From: an uncultured Victivallis sp.
GTDB taxonomy: Bacteria; Verrucomicrobiota; Lentisphaeria; Victivallales; Victivallaceae
NCBI GenBank assembly: GCA_944389815.1
Contig: CALXNS010000017.1
Coordinates: forward strand, 1-64,000
Reading direction: 5' to 3'
DNA length: 64,000 nt
Both the position numbers and the translations under genes were made by a program. A model generated the notes under the pieces. It was given only the letters and a program-made list of their open reading frames with translations. It did not search any database and had not been told where the DNA came from. Every line of letters starts with the position of its first letter. The stretch's first letter is position 1. Positions 40,735 to 51,311 of the stretch are shown here, in pieces.

Positions 40735-43326
40735 TCACCGATTCCGCCCGAAATCCGGGATGCCGCGCGAACGTTCTTCCGCGGGGAAGAAAGCCGAGCC
40801 GTCCGGTTTCACCAGCCGGCAGGTCAGGAAAACCAGAATATTACGTTTCTCTGCATCGGTGTACTTCGACTGGAAAAAGCGACCGATAACGGGCAAATCC
40901 CCCAGAATCGGAATTTTGTCATTCACGACTTCAGTCGTATCGGACGCCACACCGCCGAGCACCACGGTCTCTCCATCATAAACGGTAACGGTCGTATTGA
41001 TCTCACGACGATCGAAGATCGGCATCTTGTAATATTCACCATCGGTGTCGCCGTTCGAATCAACGGAGCGGGCGTCAAACTCCATCCAGCCGGAGAGCGT
41101 CTGGATCGGCAATATCACCTGAGCGGTAATCGTCCGGCGTTCCACGTCAACCTCCGGCGTGATATCAAACGTGATCCCCAATGGAGTCGGATCGGATTCA
41201 AACGTCGGCTGCGGGTCGGCACGGGTACCACGCCACGAACTCGTCGTCGCATTGGAGTCGCCATCTCCGCCTGCATTGTTTTCCGGCAGGTCGACGGTTT
41301 CCCATTCATCCGGGAAATACCGCTCAGTGACCATTGCAACGTGCGCGGACTGCCCGGGCAGCGTGGTCACACGTGGAGAAGCCAGCACGTCCTCGCTGTC
41401 GGCCCAGTTCAACGCAAACATGCTTGCCGTAAACCGGGTACCGTCCGTATCCTCCCAGACGAAGGAGAAGGTGCTTTCCGACATCGGATCGCGCGTACCG
41501 GTCGCCTGACCGCCACTGCCACTGCTCCCCATTTCGTCCCGGTAATAACGCATCAGCTCATTGGAGGAAGCATCGATCTTCGACGTTGACGTGACGTTGT
41601 TACCGACCGTCGTTTTCGCCGCGTTAACCGCGTATTGATAATTAAACGCCAACTCTTTCAGGTCAGTCTGAGAGATTTCGATGAACTTGGCAATGATCTG
41701 CACCATCGGTTCCTGCTGTTCCAGATAATCCGTAATCATCTGGCTGATCTTATCAAGATTTTCCGGGGTGTTGGTCACAATCAGACGGCTGATCATCGGA
41801 TCGTAAATAATCTGGGAACCATTCGGAAAATCAATCCCGTTCCCGGCAAAAAACCGAATCAGGTTATTCGGGTCGGAAATTTCGCCGTCCAGCGAAGAGG
41901 TCAACGCCTGCTGTTCGACCGGATAGATTCGCGTCTCCATCTCATCAAGAGCAACATCCTGCGGCGCCAGAATAACCGCATATTTCTCCACGCGATATTT
42001 CAGCTTCGCCGTGGCACAGAGCTTGATGATCGCGTCCATCAGCGACGTGTTGTTGATCAACAATGTAATGAGCTGTTCCTTCTTGATGGGATTGCCATCC
42101 TCATCATATTCCAACTCCTCTTCACCTTCGCCCCCCATTCCCTGAGGGCCCATTGCCTGCGGCATTCCCTGCGGCATTCCCTGCGGCCCGTAAGCGCCGG
42201 GCATTCCCTGCGGCCCCATCATCATATCCCCGGGATAGCCGCCCATATTCTGCTGATTTTCCTGCATTGCGGAATTATCCGACCGCCGCAGAAAAATATT
42301 GATTCCCACCTGTTCGGGATCCAGTTCACGGCTCTGCTTGATCAAGCTCTTCAACGCCGCCGGAACCGTGACCTCCTCAAAGTCGATACTGGGAATAATA
42401 ATGCTGTTCAATTTCTTCAACAGCGGACTTTCTTCCGGTTCGGCTTTCTTCTGAGGTTCATTCTCTATGAAATTCTCACTGAGGCTCTCAGATCCCTCAG
42501 GAACAATCGGAATCGCAAACTTCCACTCAACCTCGGAGATCATTTTCCGATGCGTGACCTTATACCGGTCTTTGCCGACTTTGCCAATCCGGATATTCAT
42601 CGCCTTCATATTTTGAAGCGCATCCGCATTGTACGGGTCGATCAGAAGCACCTCCTGAAATTTTCGGAGAGCCTTGGTATATTCACGGACATTGGCCAAC
42701 TCACGCCCCTGCTGAAGCAGCACTTCAATCTGATATTCCTGCGTCTTCAAATTCGGCAGCAGCTTTTCCGGAGCGACATCCGCGCGCATTGCCGCTGCAG
42801 CACGTTTCCGTTCATAGATTTCAACCTTGCGCTGTAACTCATCAGCTCCTTCCGGATAATATTTCTGAGCCTCTTTACAAAGATTAATCGCAGCTTCAAA
42901 ATCCTGCGCCTGCGCCTGACGATCAGCCTGATCCATCGCCTCTTCGGCCATATAGTAATAACAAAGTCCGATCTGCCGCTGGCAATGTTCCACTTTGTCC
43001 TGAAACACCGGCGTGTTGTAGGAACGGAAAAGCTTCACCGCCTCAAGATATTTATCACGCGCTTTGATGTATTCACCGTCCGCCAGAAATGCGTTCGCCT
43101 CCCGCACCAGTTCGGTCCCGCGAAGCTCTACTTCCTGCCTCCCCGCATCGGCACGATTAATCAACGCCTGCTCAGCAGCCGACACTCCATCCGCCTGCAA
43201 TGTCAACACATCGCCGGCAGCATCCCGCGGAGTCGGAATCCGCTGCTCCGCATCGGCGGCACCCACCAGTGCGGCGGCGCCCAATACCATGAGGAATCCC
43301 AGAAATCTTGTCTCTCGATATAACAT
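40735..43326 (-). CDS. Secretin (GspD/PilQ superfamily) with TPR-like N-terminus and Met-rich insert, copy B
   Basis: Outer-membrane channel protein of 863 residues. A signal peptide ends near AADAE. Residues 60-260 form TPR-like helical repeats (ANAFLADGEYIKARDKYLEA, YTKALRKFQEVLLIDP). The secretin core includes VTNTPENLDKISQMITDYLEQQEP and the C-terminal barrel signature TVVLGGVASD, then PILGDLPVIGRFFQS and RNILVFLTCRLV. Residues about 359-400 are a Met/Gly/Pro/Gln-rich insert with repeated GPQGMP. It ends GIPDFGRNR, close to the GAPDFNR end of the adjacent paralogue. It is the last gene of the operon and corresponds in position and type to Amuc_1098 of Akkermansia. Confidence 0.9.
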   Translation of the reverse strand: MLYRETRFLGFLMVLGAAALVGAADAEQRIPTPRDAAGDVLTLQADGVSAAEQALINRADAGRQEVELRGTELVREANAFLADGEYIKARDKYLEAVKLFRSYNTPVFQDKVEHCQRQIGLCYYYMAEEAMDQADRQAQAQDFEAAINLCKEAQKYYPEGADELQRKVEIYERKRAAAAMRADVAPEKLLPNLKTQEYQIEVLLQQGRELANVREYTKALRKFQEVLLIDPYNADALQNMKAMNIRIGKVGKDRYKVTHRKMISEVEWKFAIPIVPEGSESLSENFIENEPQKKAEPEESPLLKKLNSIIIPSIDFEEVTVPAALKSLIKQSRELDPEQVGINIFLRRSDNSAMQENQQNMGGYPGDMMMGPQGMPGAYGPQGMPQGMPQAMGPQGMGGEGEEELEYDEDGNPIKKEQLITLLINNTSLMDAIIKLCATAKLKYRVEKYAVILAPQDVALDEMETRIYPVEQQALTSSLDGEISDPNNLIRFFAGNGIDFPNGSQIIYDPMISRLIVTNTPENLDKISQMITDYLEQQEPMVQIIAKFIEISQTDLKELAFNYQYAVNAAKTTVGNNVTSTSKIDASSNELMRYYRDEMGSSGSGGQATGTRDPMSESTFSFVWEDTDGTRFTASMFALNWADSEDVLASPRVTTLPGQSAHVAMVTERYFPDEWETVDLPENNAGGDGDSNATTSSWRGTRADPQPTFESDPTPLGITFDITPEVDVERRTITAQVILPIQTLSGWMEFDARSVDSNGDTDGEYYKMPIFDRREINTTVTVYDGETVVLGGVASDTTEVVNDKIPILGDLPVIGRFFQSKYTDAEKRNILVFLTCRLVKPDGSAFFPAEERSRGIPDFGRNR

Positions 43327-43352
43327 AATATTTGAATCTCCGCCGTTAGTTA

Positions 43353-45968
43353 TTACCGATTAAAGTCCGGCGCACCAACTGCCGCGTTCCGACGAATCGG
43401 AACACCGTCGTTACTGACCAGCCGGGTTGTTACGAAAAGCAGGAGATTGCTGCGCGTCGCCTCTTCCGACTGCGCCTGGAAGAAGCGGCCTATGAACGGC
43501 AGATCACCCAATATCGGCCACTTATCCGTCCGCGATGTCGTCGAATTGTCCACCATTCCGCCGAGCACAATCGTCTCACCATCGTACACCGTCACGTTGA
43601 CGCGAAGATCACGCCGCGAAATCATCGGCATCCAGACGTTATATTCATTACGCGTTTCATGTTCGACCGGCTGAAGCGTCTGCCCAAGCCATTCGCCGGC
43701 AGGATTGTATGAGTCCACGTATTCCATCGTGGTCAGAATACCTTCAACGATGATCGGATAATTGTCTCGCCCGAGATAATTCGTCACCTCTGCATTCACT
43801 TCCAGGGAGATCGTGTAATTGTCCGGATTCACCCGCGGCGTCACATCAAAGATGATACCGATTTCATTCTCATCATCGAAACTCGGCTCCGGCACGGTAA
43901 TCGTCACGGTGCCGTTGTCTTCCTCAATTTCATACGTTTCCCAATCGGTCGGGAAGTAATAGGCCTTCACCATCTTTACTTCCGCACGAGTCCCGTTCGA
44001 CGTCATCAGTTTCGGTGCAGAAAGCGTCTCGGCGTGTTCGTTGCGGCTGAGCGCATTGACCGTCAGCGAAATATTCAACGGCAAATCCGAACCAAACGGG
44101 TAACGCGAACCGAATAATGCCGGAAAAATATTCCAGTTATTCACCACCGCGCCATTTACATTTGCATTATTCGCTCGGATGTTCAATGACCGATCCGCCC
44201 CCTGACCGAACGCCCAACCGTTCTTCTGGGAGTCCTCCCGGGTACCATCACTGCCCATATTGGAGCCCAGCATCGCCATCGACCAGTCAAACCCAAGTTC
44301 CTGCAGATCCGTTTCGGATATCTCCACTCCCTTGATTTCAACCATCACCAACGGCGTCTCAATGGCATCCAGCTGTCGGATCAATTCATCCATGCGCCGC
44401 AGATTGTCCAGGGTGTTACGGACACGCAACCGGCTGGAACGTTTATCATATGAAATGGAAGCGCCGGAACCTTCTTTGAACTTCACTCCACGAAGTTCGA
44501 AATAACGCTTTAATTTCGCTTCCGTCAACCGGGCTGCCGTCACGGTACTGGTGACATCCTCAAGGAATGTCTTGGCATCCGCGCCTTCCCCGGTTCGTCC
44601 CAGACGATTCCCTTCAGTATTTCCGCCGCCACCAAGAGCGCCGCCACCGCCACCGCCGCCAGGGGCACCTCCCGGCATGCCACCCATACCCATACCGCCC
44701 ATACCGTCACCCACTCCGACGGAGTCAAGGCTCGGATCGCTGGCAATGCCGGAAATCAGATTTCCACGCACCTGAAATGACTGCGTCTGCATCTCGTCAA
44801 CCTCGGGACCAATAAATACTCCATTGGACTCCACCCGGTACTTCAACCCGGTATCCTGGCAGATATAGCGCAATACTTCGCTCATCGGAATACGGGAGAA
44901 GTTGATCGTTATTCGACCACGCTCTCCCATCGCCCGCACTTCGTCAGCCGTGATACCTGTTGAGATCGCAACGCCAATCTTATCAGGATCATAAATTTTA
45001 CTGAACTTATTGAGCAGACGGATTACCGACATGATATCAGCATCGTCAATTTCAATCGTCGGAAATACAATTCGCTCCATACGGGCATAAATATCCTGCG
45101 TATCCACCACCGTCTTCTCGCCCGCACGCACCACCGTCGTGTCGAGATCAGCAGGAAACACCGGCTCCGCCCATTGCCATTTCGCGTACGCCATCATACC
45201 GGCAACATCTGCAATGTGACGCTGTTGACCATAGGTGTAGAACTGGTTGTACAAACGTTCCATCATGGCAATTGCGTCAAGATTGTTCGGATCAATGATG
45301 AACACCTGCTCCAAACGATTGCGAGCCTCGTCGAAACGCTGCTTTTCGAAGAAAGTCTGCGCTTCCGCCAGCAATTTGGCAATCTTGATTTCATTGGCCG
45401 CATAATCAGGATCCGCCTTATCCAGTGAAGTATCCGTCCGGAAAGCCTCTCCCTGCATCTTACGCCGACAATATTCCACCAGCTCACCAGCCTCCTCGGT
45501 GAATGCAGGATCGCGTTCCTGCGCCTCAGAGGCAATCGAAATCGCATCCGAATAACGCTTGTCCGCCGCCGCCAATCGCGCCCGGAAAAGAATCGCACGA
45601 GCCCATTCACCACGACAGGCCTTCAGTTCCGCTCCGATCCCTTCCAGACGCTGTGCGGCCAACTGCCCCTTCATCCCTTCCAACTGCTGAACAACCGCTT
45701 CATAAATTTTTACAGCAGATTCATATTCCGCCTTCGATCGGAATTCTCGAGCCGATTCCAGCTGCTTATCCTGTTCGGAAAAGATTTCCCGAATCTTCTC
45801 CTCCTGTTGCTGTTCCGCCGCGGCCCGCTCGCGCGCCTGCATCGCAGTCACGGCGTAATGCCCGGTCTCTTCGGCCGCAGCTGCACTGCCGCCGATCCCC
45901 GAAACCGCAACCACCAAACCGATCGCGAACATCCTCCGCGAAAGACTTTTCCGGCTTGAGATTTCCAT
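43353..45968 (-). CDS. Secretin (GspD/PilQ superfamily) with Gly/Met-rich insert, copy A
   Basis: 871-residue paralogue of the next gene with the same plan: signal peptide (GSAAAAE), TPR-like repeats (residues 75-280), N-domains, and a secretin barrel with ETIVLGGMVDNS, PILGDLPFIGRFFQAQ and SNLLLFVTTRLV. The insert at about residues 416-450 is Gly/Met-rich (GMGGMGMGGMPGGAPGG). AEVKMVKAYYFPTDWE here parallels AHVAMVTERYFPDEWE in copy B, so the duplication covers the whole gene. Two secretins in tandem could form mixed rings or two alternative channels. It lies 72 bases downstream of the zinc-ribbon protein gene. Confidence 0.9.
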   Translation of the reverse strand: MEISSRKSLSRRMFAIGLVVAVSGIGGSAAAAEETGHYAVTAMQARERAAAEQQQEEKIREIFSEQDKQLESAREFRSKAEYESAVKIYEAVVQQLEGMKGQLAAQRLEGIGAELKACRGEWARAILFRARLAAADKRYSDAISIASEAQERDPAFTEEAGELVEYCRRKMQGEAFRTDTSLDKADPDYAANEIKIAKLLAEAQTFFEKQRFDEARNRLEQVFIIDPNNLDAIAMMERLYNQFYTYGQQRHIADVAGMMAYAKWQWAEPVFPADLDTTVVRAGEKTVVDTQDIYARMERIVFPTIEIDDADIMSVIRLLNKFSKIYDPDKIGVAISTGITADEVRAMGERGRITINFSRIPMSEVLRYICQDTGLKYRVESNGVFIGPEVDEMQTQSFQVRGNLISGIASDPSLDSVGVGDGMGGMGMGGMPGGAPGGGGGGGALGGGGNTEGNRLGRTGEGADAKTFLEDVTSTVTAARLTEAKLKRYFELRGVKFKEGSGASISYDKRSSRLRVRNTLDNLRRMDELIRQLDAIETPLVMVEIKGVEISETDLQELGFDWSMAMLGSNMGSDGTREDSQKNGWAFGQGADRSLNIRANNANVNGAVVNNWNIFPALFGSRYPFGSDLPLNISLTVNALSRNEHAETLSAPKLMTSNGTRAEVKMVKAYYFPTDWETYEIEEDNGTVTITVPEPSFDDENEIGIIFDVTPRVNPDNYTISLEVNAEVTNYLGRDNYPIIVEGILTTMEYVDSYNPAGEWLGQTLQPVEHETRNEYNVWMPMISRRDLRVNVTVYDGETIVLGGMVDNSTTSRTDKWPILGDLPFIGRFFQAQSEEATRSNLLLFVTTRLVSNDGVPIRRNAAVGAPDFNR

Positions 45969-46040
45969 AGCTCGTTGTCTACCTTCGTTAATTTATCGCT
46001 ATTCGCAAAATATTTTTCTATTTCAATTCATCTCTTCTCA

Positions 46041-47303
46041 TCATTGCCGACGACGACGGCCATCCGGCATCCCCTGCGGTCCCATCATCATCATATTCGT
46101 CTGCGGCGTGCCGAATTCATCAAATACGACAATCGTCGCATCTTCCGGGACCATCCCTTCCTTCGTGACGACCATCTTCCCGCCGCGTTCATCCAGACTC
46201 TTGTCGTCTTCCAGTGACCTGGGATCCTCCAGGTTGACTGTCATCGCACTCGGGTTGATCGAGGCAATCCGGTATGCTGAAATCCCTGTACGGCGATTCC
46301 CCATGTTGAACGCCTGCCCGACATCATAAATGTATTCCCGATTATCCGCCGTATCAATGACAATCGCCTTACGGTCTGGTGAATACACATCACGCCCCAC
46401 CTGCATTTCAAGCTTCTCTTCTCCGTCCTCCTGCTCCAGCGTGATGATTGATTCATCCTGAACCAGCGGCGACCCGCCCTCTCCCGACGGCACCGTCTTG
46501 CGGCGAAGTTCGGCATCCTTGATCGTATAACGCTTGGAGCCTATCTGAACGCCTTCTCCAATCGACTTGAATTCCGTCTTGCCATCCTTGTCCGTACTGT
46601 TGATTTGAATAAGCCACAATGTCTTGTCATCGCTGCTGTTCGTGTTGATCGCCATCAGTTTATACGGAATCTTGATCGTACGCAAATCTACGAGTTTCAA
46701 TCGGTACCAGAGCGGCGGGTGCGATTTCGCATTCATCGGCGAGGTGCCGAAACGATATTCGAACAGATTCGAAAAACCATCTCCATCCTTGTCCAGACGA
46801 CCATCGGTCGGATCGTTGGGATCCAGCCCGAAACGCGTCTCGTCCTGATCGGGAATTCCGTCTCCGTCCGCATCATCCGCAGTGATCGTATACGTAATGG
46901 TTGTACGCTCCGGAGGTGTGCGCAACTCCTTCCCGCAGTTCGAAAACGGACATTTCCCGCCATCTACCATGTATGAACGGGGTATGATCTTACCGCAATG
47001 CGGACAACGCGCCATTGGAAACGCCACAACCAGATCCGAGAAATGTTCCGCATTCTCCGGATCGCGCGCCTTCGACTCATCCCAATGCAACTGAGTGCTC
47101 GCCAGCTGCATCTTCACGTCAAACTGCGACTCCTCCGGATTTACCGGCTTATAATCCGCTTCACGACTCGGGAGATTCAAATCCGAATCCTTGATCTCAC
47201 GAGTCTGATCAATGATGATAACCACGTAGATCATCGACACAATGAACGCCAGCAACAGAACAAGGAGAATCAACTTCTCATAATGTTTCTTCAAGAATTC
47301 CAA
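46041..47303 (-). CDS. Single-pass envelope protein with zinc-ribbon and calcium-type repeats (Amuc_1099 position)
   Basis: 420 residues. One N-terminal TM helix (residues about 11-31) is followed by a periplasmic part. Cys 100, 103, 118 and 123 (CPHC, CPFSNC) resemble a zinc ribbon, unusual outside the cytoplasm. Residues 144-182 contain two thrombospondin-3-like calcium loops (DADGDGIPDQDE, DKDGDGFSNLFE). The C-terminus is MMMMGPQGMPDGRRRRQ, nearly identical to part of the Met-rich insert of secretin copy B. The start is TTG 47303 with GGAGG 6 bases ahead; no ATG fits. Gene order places it where Amuc_1099 sits. It may connect inner membrane and secretin, in the manner of PilP or GspC, but that is inference. 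Confidence 0.75.
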   Translation of the reverse strand: MEFLKKHYEKLILLVLLLAFIVSMIYVVIIIDQTREIKDSDLNLPSREADYKPVNPEESQFDVKMQLASTQLHWDESKARDPENAEHFSDLVVAFPMARCPHCGKIIPRSYMVDGGKCPFSNCGKELRTPPERTTITYTITADDADGDGIPDQDETRFGLDPNDPTDGRLDKDGDGFSNLFEYRFGTSPMNAKSHPPLWYRLKLVDLRTIKIPYKLMAINTNSSDDKTLWLIQINSTDKDGKTEFKSIGEGVQIGSKRYTIKDAELRRKTVPSGEGGSPLVQDESIITLEQEDGEEKLEMQVGRDVYSPDRKAIVIDTADNREYIYDVGQAFNMGNRRTGISAYRIASINPSAMTVNLEDPRSLEDDKSLDERGGKMVVTKEGMVPEDATIVVFDEFGTPQTNMMMMGPQGMPDGRRRRQ

Positions 47304-47327
47304 AATGAACCTCCGCCTCGTTCCCGT

Positions 47328-48665
47328 TTAGTTGCCGTTGTATACGACGTAATCCACGTCAATTATCGCACGACAATCCTGTTCCGCACCGACAAGCGTA
47401 TCTCCATAACCTCGACGCTCCCAGAACGGTCGTTTTTTATCCGCTTCAATCTCTGCCTGCCGACGACGCTCCATCTCCGCAAGCATCTCTTCCTCCGTCA
47501 TCTGCTCCTGCCCTCCCGGCATCATTCCCGGCATCATCATATTGTTTCCACCACGCGAGCGGCGGGTGCGCATCCCCGGCTGGGGCATCATCATCCCACC
47601 GCCTCTTTGCGATTGCGGCCGCATTCCTGAACGCTGCTGCTGGAACTGCTGCAACAATGCCGCCTCATCCAATTTTTCTTCCGGCTGAAACAGTACCTCC
47701 GCAGGATCCGCCGTCGCATACAAAAAGATACTGCGCACAATATAAAAGCGCGAATCCTTATAGCCTTCATCCAGCAGCTTCGCCAATTTTCTGATCGCTT
47801 CCATCTTCCCGGTGACTTCAAAGGAATAGTGATAAATCAGATACGAACCAGACTCCTCGCCTTCGATGCTCCGCTTCGAAAACTTCGTCAATGCCCCGAC
47901 TCCGGATTCCGTGAGCCGTTTGACAATATCACCAATCACATCCCACTGTGCCGCAATCTTCGGAATACTTTCCGGCGTGTAAAGCTGCTTTTCCATGTCA
48001 AAAGAGAAATACGACGCATCATCCTGCAACGTTACTTTCCCTTCCGTCATATCCACCAGCTTATCACGGTAATCCCGCATGAACAGCCGCAATTTGTCTA
48101 TCTTTCCCTCCATCGTCCGAGGAACCCCCAACGACGAAAGGAATATCTCATCCATACGGAAATCACTGATCGGCTCCGTAATCACGGATTCGGCCAGCTT
48201 GCGGAATTGAATCATCGCCTGATCCCAATTCTTGAACTGCTGCTGAAACTCCTTATAGAAAATTCCCTGCTGAGCAACATTCGTCGCGTCAATCGCATCC
48301 CAACCCTCATGAAACTTCTCTTTGAAAGCGTCCACCGTGAGCTTTTCACCTTCTACCGGTTCCAGCTTCGCAACAAACTGTTCCAACGCTTCCGTCAGCG
48401 GATGCGAAAACACCTTCTCCAGACGTTTGGCCGCGGCTTTATAAGTGTCCACATCCTTCTGGATCAAGGCCAGATTTCCCTCCACCGGAGCTGGGTCTTT
48501 ATCAATCAACTCCTGAATCTTTTCACGCAATGACGATACCTCATTGCTGTATTTCGACATTTCACTATGCTCCAAAGCAGTCCAGACCAGAAGCACACAT
48601 ACCGCAATAAACGATACACTGATTACCAGAATCAGTATCAGATTTTTTTTCAGAAAGCGATTCAC
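47328..48665 (-). CDS. Amuc_1100-like PilO-type inner-membrane protein
   Basis: 445 residues with an N-terminal TM helix (residues about 8-28), a coiled-coil region (SSLREKIQELIDKDP) and an alpha/beta periplasmic part containing YHYSFEVTGKMEAIRKLAKLLDE, the ferredoxin-like motif expected of PilO/GspM-type proteins. The general layout and the gene order after a PilM homologue match Amuc_1100 of Akkermansia. Residues 346-389 are Met/Arg/Gly/Gln-rich (GGGMMMPQPGM, NNMMMPGMMPGG), followed by a conserved-looking ending. The start is GTG 48665 with GGAG 8 bases ahead. It follows the PilM-PilN gene by 14 bases. Confidence 0.8.
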   Translation of the reverse strand: MNRFLKKNLILILVISVSFIAVCVLLVWTALEHSEMSKYSNEVSSLREKIQELIDKDPAPVEGNLALIQKDVDTYKAAAKRLEKVFSHPLTEALEQFVAKLEPVEGEKLTVDAFKEKFHEGWDAIDATNVAQQGIFYKEFQQQFKNWDQAMIQFRKLAESVITEPISDFRMDEIFLSSLGVPRTMEGKIDKLRLFMRDYRDKLVDMTEGKVTLQDDASYFSFDMEKQLYTPESIPKIAAQWDVIGDIVKRLTESGVGALTKFSKRSIEGEESGSYLIYHYSFEVTGKMEAIRKLAKLLDEGYKDSRFYIVRSIFLYATADPAEVLFQPEEKLDEAALLQQFQQQRSGMRPQSQRGGGMMMPQPGMRTRRSRGGNNMMMPGMMPGGQEQMTEEEMLAEMERRRQAEIEADKKRPFWERRGYGDTLVGAEQDCRAIIDVDYVVYNGN

Positions 48666-48679
48666 TGCTGTTCTCCGTG

Positions 48680-50539
48680 CTATTTCTTAATCGGCTCTTT
48701 CAATTTGAAGACAATTTCAAACGCCGTCATATTCAACGTCTGTGTGTCTGAAGTGAATTTGACCAACGTCGATCCTTCGTCCTTGCCTTCAACGAAATAT
48801 TTACTATTCGTACAGAGTCGCTCCCGCAACTCATTCTCCAGCAATGTCTTCCCCTCCGTCAACAAAGAATATCCCCGCAGACGGATCTCCTTTACTTCGT
48901 GAATATTCACCGGATCTGGATCCGGCGTCTCCTCTTCCTCGCCCGTCTGCTGCATCGCGGGATCCCCGAACAGTCCGGCCATCCCCATTGGAGGCATCGG
49001 CCCCAAACCCCCGCCCATCGGTCCGCCGGAAGCGGTCTCCGGCGTCGGTTCGACTACATCGCCAATTCCTACAATACTGGTCAACCAGACGTTGTCTGGC
49101 ATCCGTTCCTGAATCTCTTCGAGCATCCCCGTCCATTTGCCGCGATCCGCCAGAAATTGATAAGCCGCCTCGTATTCGCTCTTCGCCGACCGATACTGGC
49201 CCATCAACCCATTCACCCGATCCATCATTTTCGTCGTCGCTTCCACGCTGCTTTGCACACGCTCCACTCGCGACTTATCGAAATTCAAACGCCGATTCAC
49301 TCCTGCCGCAAAAATCAGAAGGCACAATATCAACGATACCGCACTGATGTAAAAATAGATTTTCTTACGATCAAGCTCCTTCTGCCGTTTGATCGAATTC
49401 GGCACCAGCGAAATGTCAATCGGGCACTGCGTCACACTCCGCAGACTCAATCCAATCAACTCCTGGAACATCGGCGCAATCGCCTGCAACGCATCCTTAT
49501 TCACGTTGTCGGCAATTGTGATCGCACCAAAGGTATTCAAATATTCAACCGGCAGGCGTAATTTTTCCTGGAAGAAATCCGTGATGTACAACATCGTTGA
49601 GCCGCCGCCCGACAGCAACACACGCGTCGGCGCATTTCCGCCATGGCTCGACCGCCATACATTGATCGAACGACTCACTTCCCCGTGAAGTCGGGTCATC
49701 ACGTTTCGCGCTATCTTCGAAATCGTCGCGGCCACCTCCGATTCCGGCTCCTCGTATGCGCCTCCAAGCGCCACAAAACCATGCCGCTGCTTCAAATCCT
49801 CCGCCTCTTCAAAGCCGATGCTGAACTCCTTGGCCACCTGCTGCGTAATCGCATCCCCGGCAATCGGAATACTGCGGATAAACACACGGTTGTGATCTGC
49901 TATCATCAGGTTCGACCCGCGACCACCTATGTTGAGAAGCAATACACACTCATCGTCCTGGCATTGCGTCGCCTTCGCCGCATTGAATAACGCAATCGGA
50001 GCAATCTCCACGGAAAGAATCTCTTTCCCGGAATCCTCTATCACATCCGTGTATTGCGTGATCTGATCGGTCTTTACGGCCACGAACAACGCCTCGTATT
50101 CTTCGTGCGCATCCGAAATCTCCAGCGTCGACCCGTCTTCCTGCGTCTCCAGACGGCTCTCCACCCACTCGTGTTTTAACAACTGGTAGTCCCAGACCAC
50201 CTCGTCCATCGGATACGGTACCGTCTGGCGCGCCTCGAATTCAATGATCTTATTCACCGCGCCGGGATTTCCCATCAACGGAGGAAGCTTGCTTAAACGG
50301 GAAAAGGAATTCTGCCCGGAAAGCGATAAACGCACTTGTTTGGCGGTAAAATTATATTCGCTCAGCAACTCATGGTACACTTCCGCAAAGGCCTTGCCCG
50401 CGCCCTCTTCCTGTTCCACCAGTTTGCGAAACGCAAAATTCCGCAGAACAATCGTACCACCGGGAACAAAAACAAACTCCGCCAGCTTGAGATTGTCTCC
50501 ACCGATGTCGATCGTCAATACCGAGTGCTCTTTTGCCAT
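48680..50539 (-). CDS. PilM-PilN fusion, pilus-type inner-membrane platform protein
   Basis: 619 residues. Residues 1-375 are PilM, an actin-like protein (VLTIDIGGDNLKLAEF, FEARQTVPYPMDEVVWDYQL, LLLNIGGRGSNLMI, RVLLSGGGSTML). The PilM tail continues without a stop into IDISLVPNSIKRQKELDRKK. This is the motif that in separate PilN proteins lies at the N-terminus and binds PilM. A TM helix (394-414), coiled coil and periplasmic domain follow. A Gly/Met/Pro-rich stretch lies at 504-530. ATG 50539 aligns with PilM starts; a GTG 33 bases upstream is possible. The fusion makes PilM and PilN obligately 1:1. The position equals Amuc_1101. Confidence 0.87.
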   Translation of the reverse strand: MAKEHSVLTIDIGGDNLKLAEFVFVPGGTIVLRNFAFRKLVEQEEGAGKAFAEVYHELLSEYNFTAKQVRLSLSGQNSFSRLSKLPPLMGNPGAVNKIIEFEARQTVPYPMDEVVWDYQLLKHEWVESRLETQEDGSTLEISDAHEEYEALFVAVKTDQITQYTDVIEDSGKEILSVEIAPIALFNAAKATQCQDDECVLLLNIGGRGSNLMIADHNRVFIRSIPIAGDAITQQVAKEFSIGFEEAEDLKQRHGFVALGGAYEEPESEVAATISKIARNVMTRLHGEVSRSINVWRSSHGGNAPTRVLLSGGGSTMLYITDFFQEKLRLPVEYLNTFGAITIADNVNKDALQAIAPMFQELIGLSLRSVTQCPIDISLVPNSIKRQKELDRKKIYFYISAVSLILCLLIFAAGVNRRLNFDKSRVERVQSSVEATTKMMDRVNGLMGQYRSAKSEYEAAYQFLADRGKWTGMLEEIQERMPDNVWLTSIVGIGDVVEPTPETASGGPMGGGLGPMPPMGMAGLFGDPAMQQTGEEEETPDPDPVNIHEVKEIRLRGYSLLTEGKTLLENELRERLCTNSKYFVEGKDEGSTLVKFTSDTQTLNMTAFEIVFKLKEPIKK

Positions 50540-50629
50540 TTTTATCAGATGTTCCGCTGTTTTCGCAACCACCTCGAGCTGCGCGGGCTTTCACCCTGGA
50601 TTTTTATTCTGTATATTTACGAAACCGCC

Positions 50630-51283
50630 TCAAGGTTTGATCAAATCAAAATCATCGATGCTCGCATACTGCCACGGGGTCTTGTTGCGCGGCCATAACG
50701 AACCTTCAACTTCAACCAGCGGCTTCTGCTGCAACAATTGATTGAACCATTGGCGCCCCGCCCGGAGATCCGTTCCTCGAAACGGATAATAACCTTCGCC
50801 AATCACCTGACCCCCGCGATCAAGAAATTGCGCCTGCACGGAAAATGTCGAACTCCCCACCGTGCTCGCCGATCCCGATACCGGAAGATAACGATCCAGC
50901 AGATGCGGAGGAATCATCATCGTAGCAACATGTTTACGACCATCAAGCGGAATCGTCCAGAATTCCGTCTTCCCGGAAAACACAAACGTCACCTTTCGAC
51001 CACCGGTCTGACCAACGCACACCGCCTTCATCGACAATACCACGTCATCAATCCAGACATTACGCGCATTATCTTCGGTCTTCGGATAAAACTCCACCCG
51101 GATTATCAACCACTTGTTCCGAAGATCTCCGCTCGGAACACTGATCGAATTGTCTTTCCCCGCCGGATTCGAGGAGGTGCTCACCAAATCAATCTTGATC
51201 CTGGTCATCAACTCCGCTCCACATGCAGAACCGGTCAGGATCACCGCAATAACCAGAAGCAGAAGCTTGCAAATTGGTTTCAT
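50630..51283 (-). CDS. Exported protein of unknown function (Amuc_1102 position)
   Basis: 217 residues with a signal peptide (KPICKLLLLVIAVILTGSACGAE). The remainder is rich in beta-strands (WLIIRVEFYP, VTFVFSGKTEFWTIPL, STFSVQAQFLDRGG) with no recognised catalytic motif. It sits directly before the PilM-PilN gene, in the place of Amuc_1102, which is reported to have an immunoglobulin-like fold. Homology beyond position is only suspected. ATG 51283 is chosen because GAGAGG lies at a proper distance; ATG 51289 would abut it. A Cys near the cleavage site does not fit a standard lipobox well. Confidence 0.6.
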   Translation of the reverse strand: MKPICKLLLLVIAVILTGSACGAELMTRIKIDLVSTSSNPAGKDNSISVPSGDLRNKWLIIRVEFYPKTEDNARNVWIDDVVLSMKAVCVGQTGGRKVTFVFSGKTEFWTIPLDGRKHVATMMIPPHLLDRYLPVSGSASTVGSSTFSVQAQFLDRGGQVIGEGYYPFRGTDLRAGRQWFNQLLQQKPLVEVEGSLWPRNKTPWQYASIDDFDLIKP

Positions 51284-51311
51284 CTCCATCCCTCTCCCGA
51301 CTTGCCCGATC

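Follow-up and report, generated by a model that had tools for sequence, protein, structure and literature searches.

Concerted change of Met/Gly/Pro-rich linkers in five proteins of a Victivallis PilM-N-O and secretin cluster

Relationship of the cluster to known systems

In Akkermansia muciniphila, the genes Amuc_1098 to Amuc_1102 encode abundant envelope proteins that are thought to form pili-like structures (PMC5332112). We analysed a 64,000-nucleotide stretch of DNA (hereafter the window), the beginning of contig 17 of an uncultured Victivallis sp., a gut bacterium. The window carries on its minus strand a conserved gene cluster that, judged from its matches to Amuc_1102 and Amuc_1100, is the Victivallis version of Amuc_1098-1102. 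Its first gene (50630-51289) encodes a secreted protein of 219 aa, an Amuc_1102 homologue with a profile match to the Amuc_1102 structure 7dsz (1.8e-19). It is followed by a PilM-PilN fusion of 630 aa (PilMN, 48680-50572; Pfam PilM_2, 1.2e-26; FtsA, 1.2e-10), a PilO-like protein of 445 aa (47328-48665; profile match to 6lad/6kny, 8e-12; Foldseek match to Amuc_1100, 2e-7), a zinc-ribbon protein of 420 aa (46041-47303) and two secretins, A of 871 aa (43353-45968; Pfam Secretin, 1.9e-33) and B of 863 aa (40735-43326; Pfam Secretin, 1.5e-26), all delimited by simple open reading frame (ORF) calls. As in Akkermansia, homologues of Amuc_1102 and Amuc_1100 thus stand in one cluster with a PilM/FtsA-like protein, a further membrane protein and a secretin. 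In contrast to Amuc_1098-1102, the Victivallis cluster has two secretins rather than one, its PilM is fused to a PilN part, and its disordered inserts, described below, are missing from the aligning stretch of Amuc_1100.

The cluster also resembles the PilMNOP-PilQ machinery of type IV pili in having a PilM domain, a PilN-like membrane part, a PilO-like fold and a secretin. PilM and secretin were recognized by Pfam and PilO by its fold via Amuc_1100, a separate Pfam match for PilN being absent; the structural match of the PilO-like protein to Pseudomonas aeruginosa PilO (2rjz) is weak (Foldseek probability 0.97, E 0.2). Unlike in PilMNOP-PilQ, no PilP was found, and a membrane protein with a zinc ribbon and a calcium-motif-like region is present instead. 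This zinc-ribbon protein, which combines a transmembrane helix, a CxxC-type zinc ribbon, a DxDxDG region and a beta-rich domain, appears to be an undescribed, conserved envelope protein that is widespread in the phylum: residues C100, C118, C123 and D171-D175 are conserved in the relatives compared, Pfam gave matches below the cut-off only, and a structure search with the modelled fold returned no PDB match. Of 289 genomes in the phylum, 230 gave a match to its gene; many weaker ones cover only a portion of the protein.

Using the PilM gene as a marker, the cluster was detected in 59 of the 61 genomes searched, and a comparison of the loci showed that its gene order is kept in relatives. Two adjacent secretins are found in Victivallales and one in loci annotated as Kiritimatiellae or Verrucomicrobia (L097, L099, L101-L105, L107-L110), corresponding to a duplication or loss relative to 40735-45968 of the window. 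An additional PilM-like gene lies at a separate locus in one genome (L084, G060:C108), with no other cluster genes in the surrounding 12 kb.

Hydropathy analysis gave a single transmembrane helix in PilMN (approximately aa 407-425), and one N-terminal transmembrane helix each in the PilO-like protein and the zinc-ribbon protein; both secretins begin with a signal-like sequence. Taken together with the protein families, these features place the PilN part of PilMN, and all five of the segments considered below, in the periplasm by prediction.

Met/Gly/Pro-rich segments and their restriction to the operon

The original prediction described a Met/Gly/Pro-rich low-complexity segment in each of five cluster proteins, and all five lie in frame where it had placed them. 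The first (48953-49027) is a loop in the PilN part (PilMN aa 516-540, GGPMGGGLGPMPPMGMAGLFGDPAM). The second (47499-47630; aa 346-389 of the PilO-like protein) lies between helices 334-346 and 391-410, before the last strand, and the third (46044-46100) forms the C-terminal tail of the zinc-ribbon protein (aa 402-420). The fourth (44617-44718; secretin A aa 417-451) is Gly-rich, contains 4 Met and lies in the N-domain region, ahead of the secretin domain, and the fifth (42127-42250; secretin B aa 359-400) contains internal GPQGM repeats. Also as predicted, the nine residues MMMGPQGMP are common to the zinc-ribbon tail and secretin B. Pooled, the segments contain 35 Met in 210 residues (approximately 17%), with an uneven composition in that Gly makes up most of the secretin A segment (16 of 25 residues) and the tail of the zinc-ribbon protein is short. 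AlphaFold models of two of the five proteins, the PilO-like and the zinc-ribbon protein, have pLDDT values below 50 at residues 347-385 and 402-420, respectively, coinciding with segments 2 and 3, and the segments are accordingly predicted to be intrinsically disordered. In relatives the positions of these linkers are kept and their sequences are not: the sites, including the PilN-part loop, are hypervariable, gap-rich and 0 to 179 residues long, and the secretin A insertion shrinks to 5-13 aa across most of the order.

We then asked how specific such segments are, using a fixed criterion by which a 25-aa window had to contain 4 or more Met and 12 or more Met+Gly+Pro. Within the 64,000 nucleotides, 5 of 38 ORFs pass, exactly the five segment-bearing genes. 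A 672-kb sample, 20% of this genome, comprising 553 other ORFs and including all other detected secretin-type ORFs, yielded no comparable linker, a single weak window of another kind passing (QMGMGGFHMHARTGLGTPYLGPEFM), and linker-like windows elsewhere in this genome average 2.2% Met. Met-rich linkers are likewise absent from the six other secretin-type ORFs found and from the sampled type II secretion and pilus regions. In G026, whose operon is also Met-rich, a 400-kb sample gave one membrane-type window in 315 ORFs, and other linkers contain 2.4% Met. Among the loci of relatives, the criterion is passed by 40 of 334 operon genes versus 2 of 485 neighbouring genes, both of the latter encoding small membrane proteins that look homologous to each other and lie directly downstream of secretin B or one gene past it. 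No Met/Gly/Pro segment occurs in the secreted product of the first cluster gene, which serves as an internal negative control. A system-specific signal, for which a genome scan had been proposed, therefore holds in the sampled fifth of the genome. The five proteins belong to unrelated families, and the view that their common composition does not descend from common domains stands. The claim that no such feature has been described agrees with the literature searched, in which a query for methionine-rich low complexity with secretins returned shell-matrix papers only. Two sequence patterns tried as genome-wide scans proved too unspecific: ATGATGATG gave 93 matches, 5 of them in the operon, those that were read lying mostly in another frame or within signal peptides, and GGNATGCCNGG was discarded for the same reason.

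As the window genome consists of 135 contigs and this feature was the reason for choosing the window, an artefact of metagenome assembly or of window choice had to be considered. It is refuted by related genomes, since Met-bearing linkers are present in the record of the named Victivallis vadensis DSM 14823 (L089) and concerted Met-rich linkers occur in unrelated genomes.

Concerted change of linker composition across relatives

The share of Met among linker residues varies across relatives from none to 22% and is high in a minority of lineages. Genomes in which all or most of the five linkers are Met-rich are that of the window, L039/L040, L042, L051, L055/L057, L062 and L097, the last lying far outside the order; in most other genomes Met is near zero in every one of the five. 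The zinc-ribbon tail alone is Met-rich in L067, L069, L071, L072 and L076, which belong to other families of the order. When phylogenetic contrasts of Met content were computed on a tree built from the ordered regions of the proteins, linker Met was correlated between proteins with a mean r of 0.41 (68 genomes), a value reached by none of 5000 permutations (maximum 0.17); a smaller set of 48 genomes gave 0.51. Pairwise values range from 0.12 (PilMN and zinc-ribbon protein) to 0.61 (secretins A and B). The PilMN-PilO pair gives 0.55, and these two strongest pairs are those expected to touch, PilN and PilO because they form a heterodimer in type IV pili. Removing linker length lowers the mean r to 0.27 and the value for PilMN versus the zinc-ribbon protein to -0.04, so that part of the correlation arises because linker length varies too. 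Genome-wide common Met use was rejected as the cause, as Met in the ordered parts is correlated neither between proteins (-0.03) nor with linker Met (0.01). An alignment-free count led to the same result: with approximately one genome per genus, at least three Met-rich proteins occur in 7 of 67 genomes against 0.9 expected (0 of 5000 permutations), and leaving out the window genome gives 6 of 66 thinned genomes, the expectation of about 0.9 having been calculated with the window included. The linkers thus change in concert, a pattern suggesting that they function as a single unit. The effect is not restricted to Met, since Ala content is correlated as well (PIC r 0.28).

The original prediction had named absence of the segments from close relatives with an intact locus as grounds for giving up a system-specific signal. 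This was found in part: two congeners with intact loci have 2 Met (L035) and 1 Met (L038) over all five linkers, and several other Victivallis relatives keep Met-bearing linkers. Met is consequently not essential, and the machine works without it.

We favour, tentatively and with a rough probability of 0.42, the explanation that the segments are matched, fast-evolving disordered periplasmic linkers of one trans-envelope machine that meet in the assembled complex; we infer both the contact and the role in assembly. The machine would be a PilM-N-O and secretin assembly, the Victivallis counterpart of Amuc_1098-1102. Its linker compositions evolve together: in several separate lineages, once one has become Met/Gly/Pro-rich the others tend to follow, with no sign of recent DNA copying between the genes. 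The PilN, PilO and zinc-ribbon linkers would crowd one periplasmic space together with the N-domains of both secretins, and probably they contact one another there. Selection would then keep weak, non-specific interaction properties matched, namely flexibility and Met side chains acting as soft hydrophobic stickers, and matched linkers may help the inner-membrane and outer-membrane parts to assemble.

The main rival, which we place close to this reading and likewise consider possible, is shared circumstance without contact. Proteins in the same compartment, encoded in one operon, expressed at one level and weakly constrained in their linkers could have linker composition set lineage by lineage, through drift or through selection on protease resistance, translation or amino-acid supply, and would come to look matched without interacting. 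That Ala, Pro and acidic residues also covary between linkers, more weakly than Met, fits such an origin, as do the dispensability of Met in congeners and the finding that words differ between lineages, with GMPG/PGMP-type words recurring as low-complexity sequence would. Against it, the six other secretin-type ORFs, the sampled type II secretion and pilus regions, the secreted first gene of the cluster and the neighbouring genes all lack Met-rich linkers.

A different form of mutual contact, which we consider unlikely, would be a cohesive code, in which weakly self-associating Met/Gly/Pro segments on the five proteins know each other and not other secretin systems and form a small periplasmic mesh that nucleates assembly, each lineage having its own version of the code and its five segments co-evolving. 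The Met-rich low-complexity region of yeast Pbp1 self-associates, and like the Victivallis segments it is disordered and not enriched in aromatic residues (PMC8394241). Unlike Pbp1, the Victivallis segments are predicted to be periplasmic, are short (19-44 aa), are spread over five proteins of one machine and vary between lineages.

Shared words, Met spacing and the origin of the likeness

The nine-residue match MMMGPQGMP exceeds every match produced by shuffling the residues of both linkers 200,000 times (maximum 8), a null that is generous because secretin B repeats GPQGMP internally, and the word is not conserved even within the genus. Across genomes, different proteins of one genome have 154 4-mers in common versus 67 +- 9 in residue shuffles, an excess to be read as an upper estimate because shuffling destroys local repeats. 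Long words of this kind (MMMGPQGMP here, GMDMGGGP in V. vadensis, MMDPMMM in L062), together with tandem repeats inside individual linkers (Met-Met period 5), are what one would expect if slippage, recombination or gene conversion had carried a repeat from gene to gene within the operon. Spreading of a repeat was suggested in the original prediction. The codons do not bear this out. Synonymous codons in shared words agree at 68 of 126 positions versus 68.8 expected, and at 2 of 5 in MMMGPQGMP, so recent DNA copying between the genes is rejected; local slippage may lengthen single linkers but leaves the matching between genes unexplained. We regard repeat spreading as very improbable, and the origin that remains would be convergence of the proteins themselves, or DNA copying ancient enough for synonymous sites to have become randomized.

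Met-rich copper-binding regions are found in bacterial proteins of the CueO/PcoC type and in eukaryotic Ctr1, and like them the Victivallis linkers contain Met clusters with Gly, Pro and Asp. A Met-based sensor of Cu(I)/Ag(I) or of oxidation, in which metal binding or Met oxidation would loosen or tighten the complex, could draw on the high Met content (up to 22% over five linkers), the predicted periplasmic location and the precedent of Pbp1, whose Met low-complexity region can act as a redox switch (PMC8394241). The Met-Met distances, however, are enriched at 5 (z 9.3) and 4 (z 5.5), mildly at 3 (z 3.3) and not at 2 (z 1.2), which does not correspond to the MxM/MxxM spacing of Cu(I) motifs, and unlike in the CueO/PcoC/Ctr1 regions His is virtually lacking (0.1% of linker residues). 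Moreover, Victivallis is a strict anaerobe and would have less need for an oxidation sensor. Together with the loss of Met in L035 and L038, the spacing weakens the earlier proposals of an essential tag or a metal or redox sensor, and we judge the latter improbable.

The locus provides a clean natural case in which disordered segments on several unrelated proteins shift composition together, and close relatives without the feature serve as internal controls. Should the linkers interact, matching of composition could be used to tell which proteins make up a machine, with consequences for the Amuc_1100 system of Akkermansia. Amuc_1100 is studied as a probiotic protein, and we know of no machine function for it.

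Two further observations concern individual relatives. In L046 and L047 the PilMN and secretin B linkers are rich in Ala and Pro, with AAAPAP common to both, another matched composition. In L054 (10659-11444) and L059 (11474-12001), a gene a short way downstream of secretin B encodes a small single-transmembrane protein that also has a short stretch rich in Met (PNMPDMMMPLMDTM and MEPGMEMPLFEMM, respectively) and is possibly a further part of the machine in those genomes.
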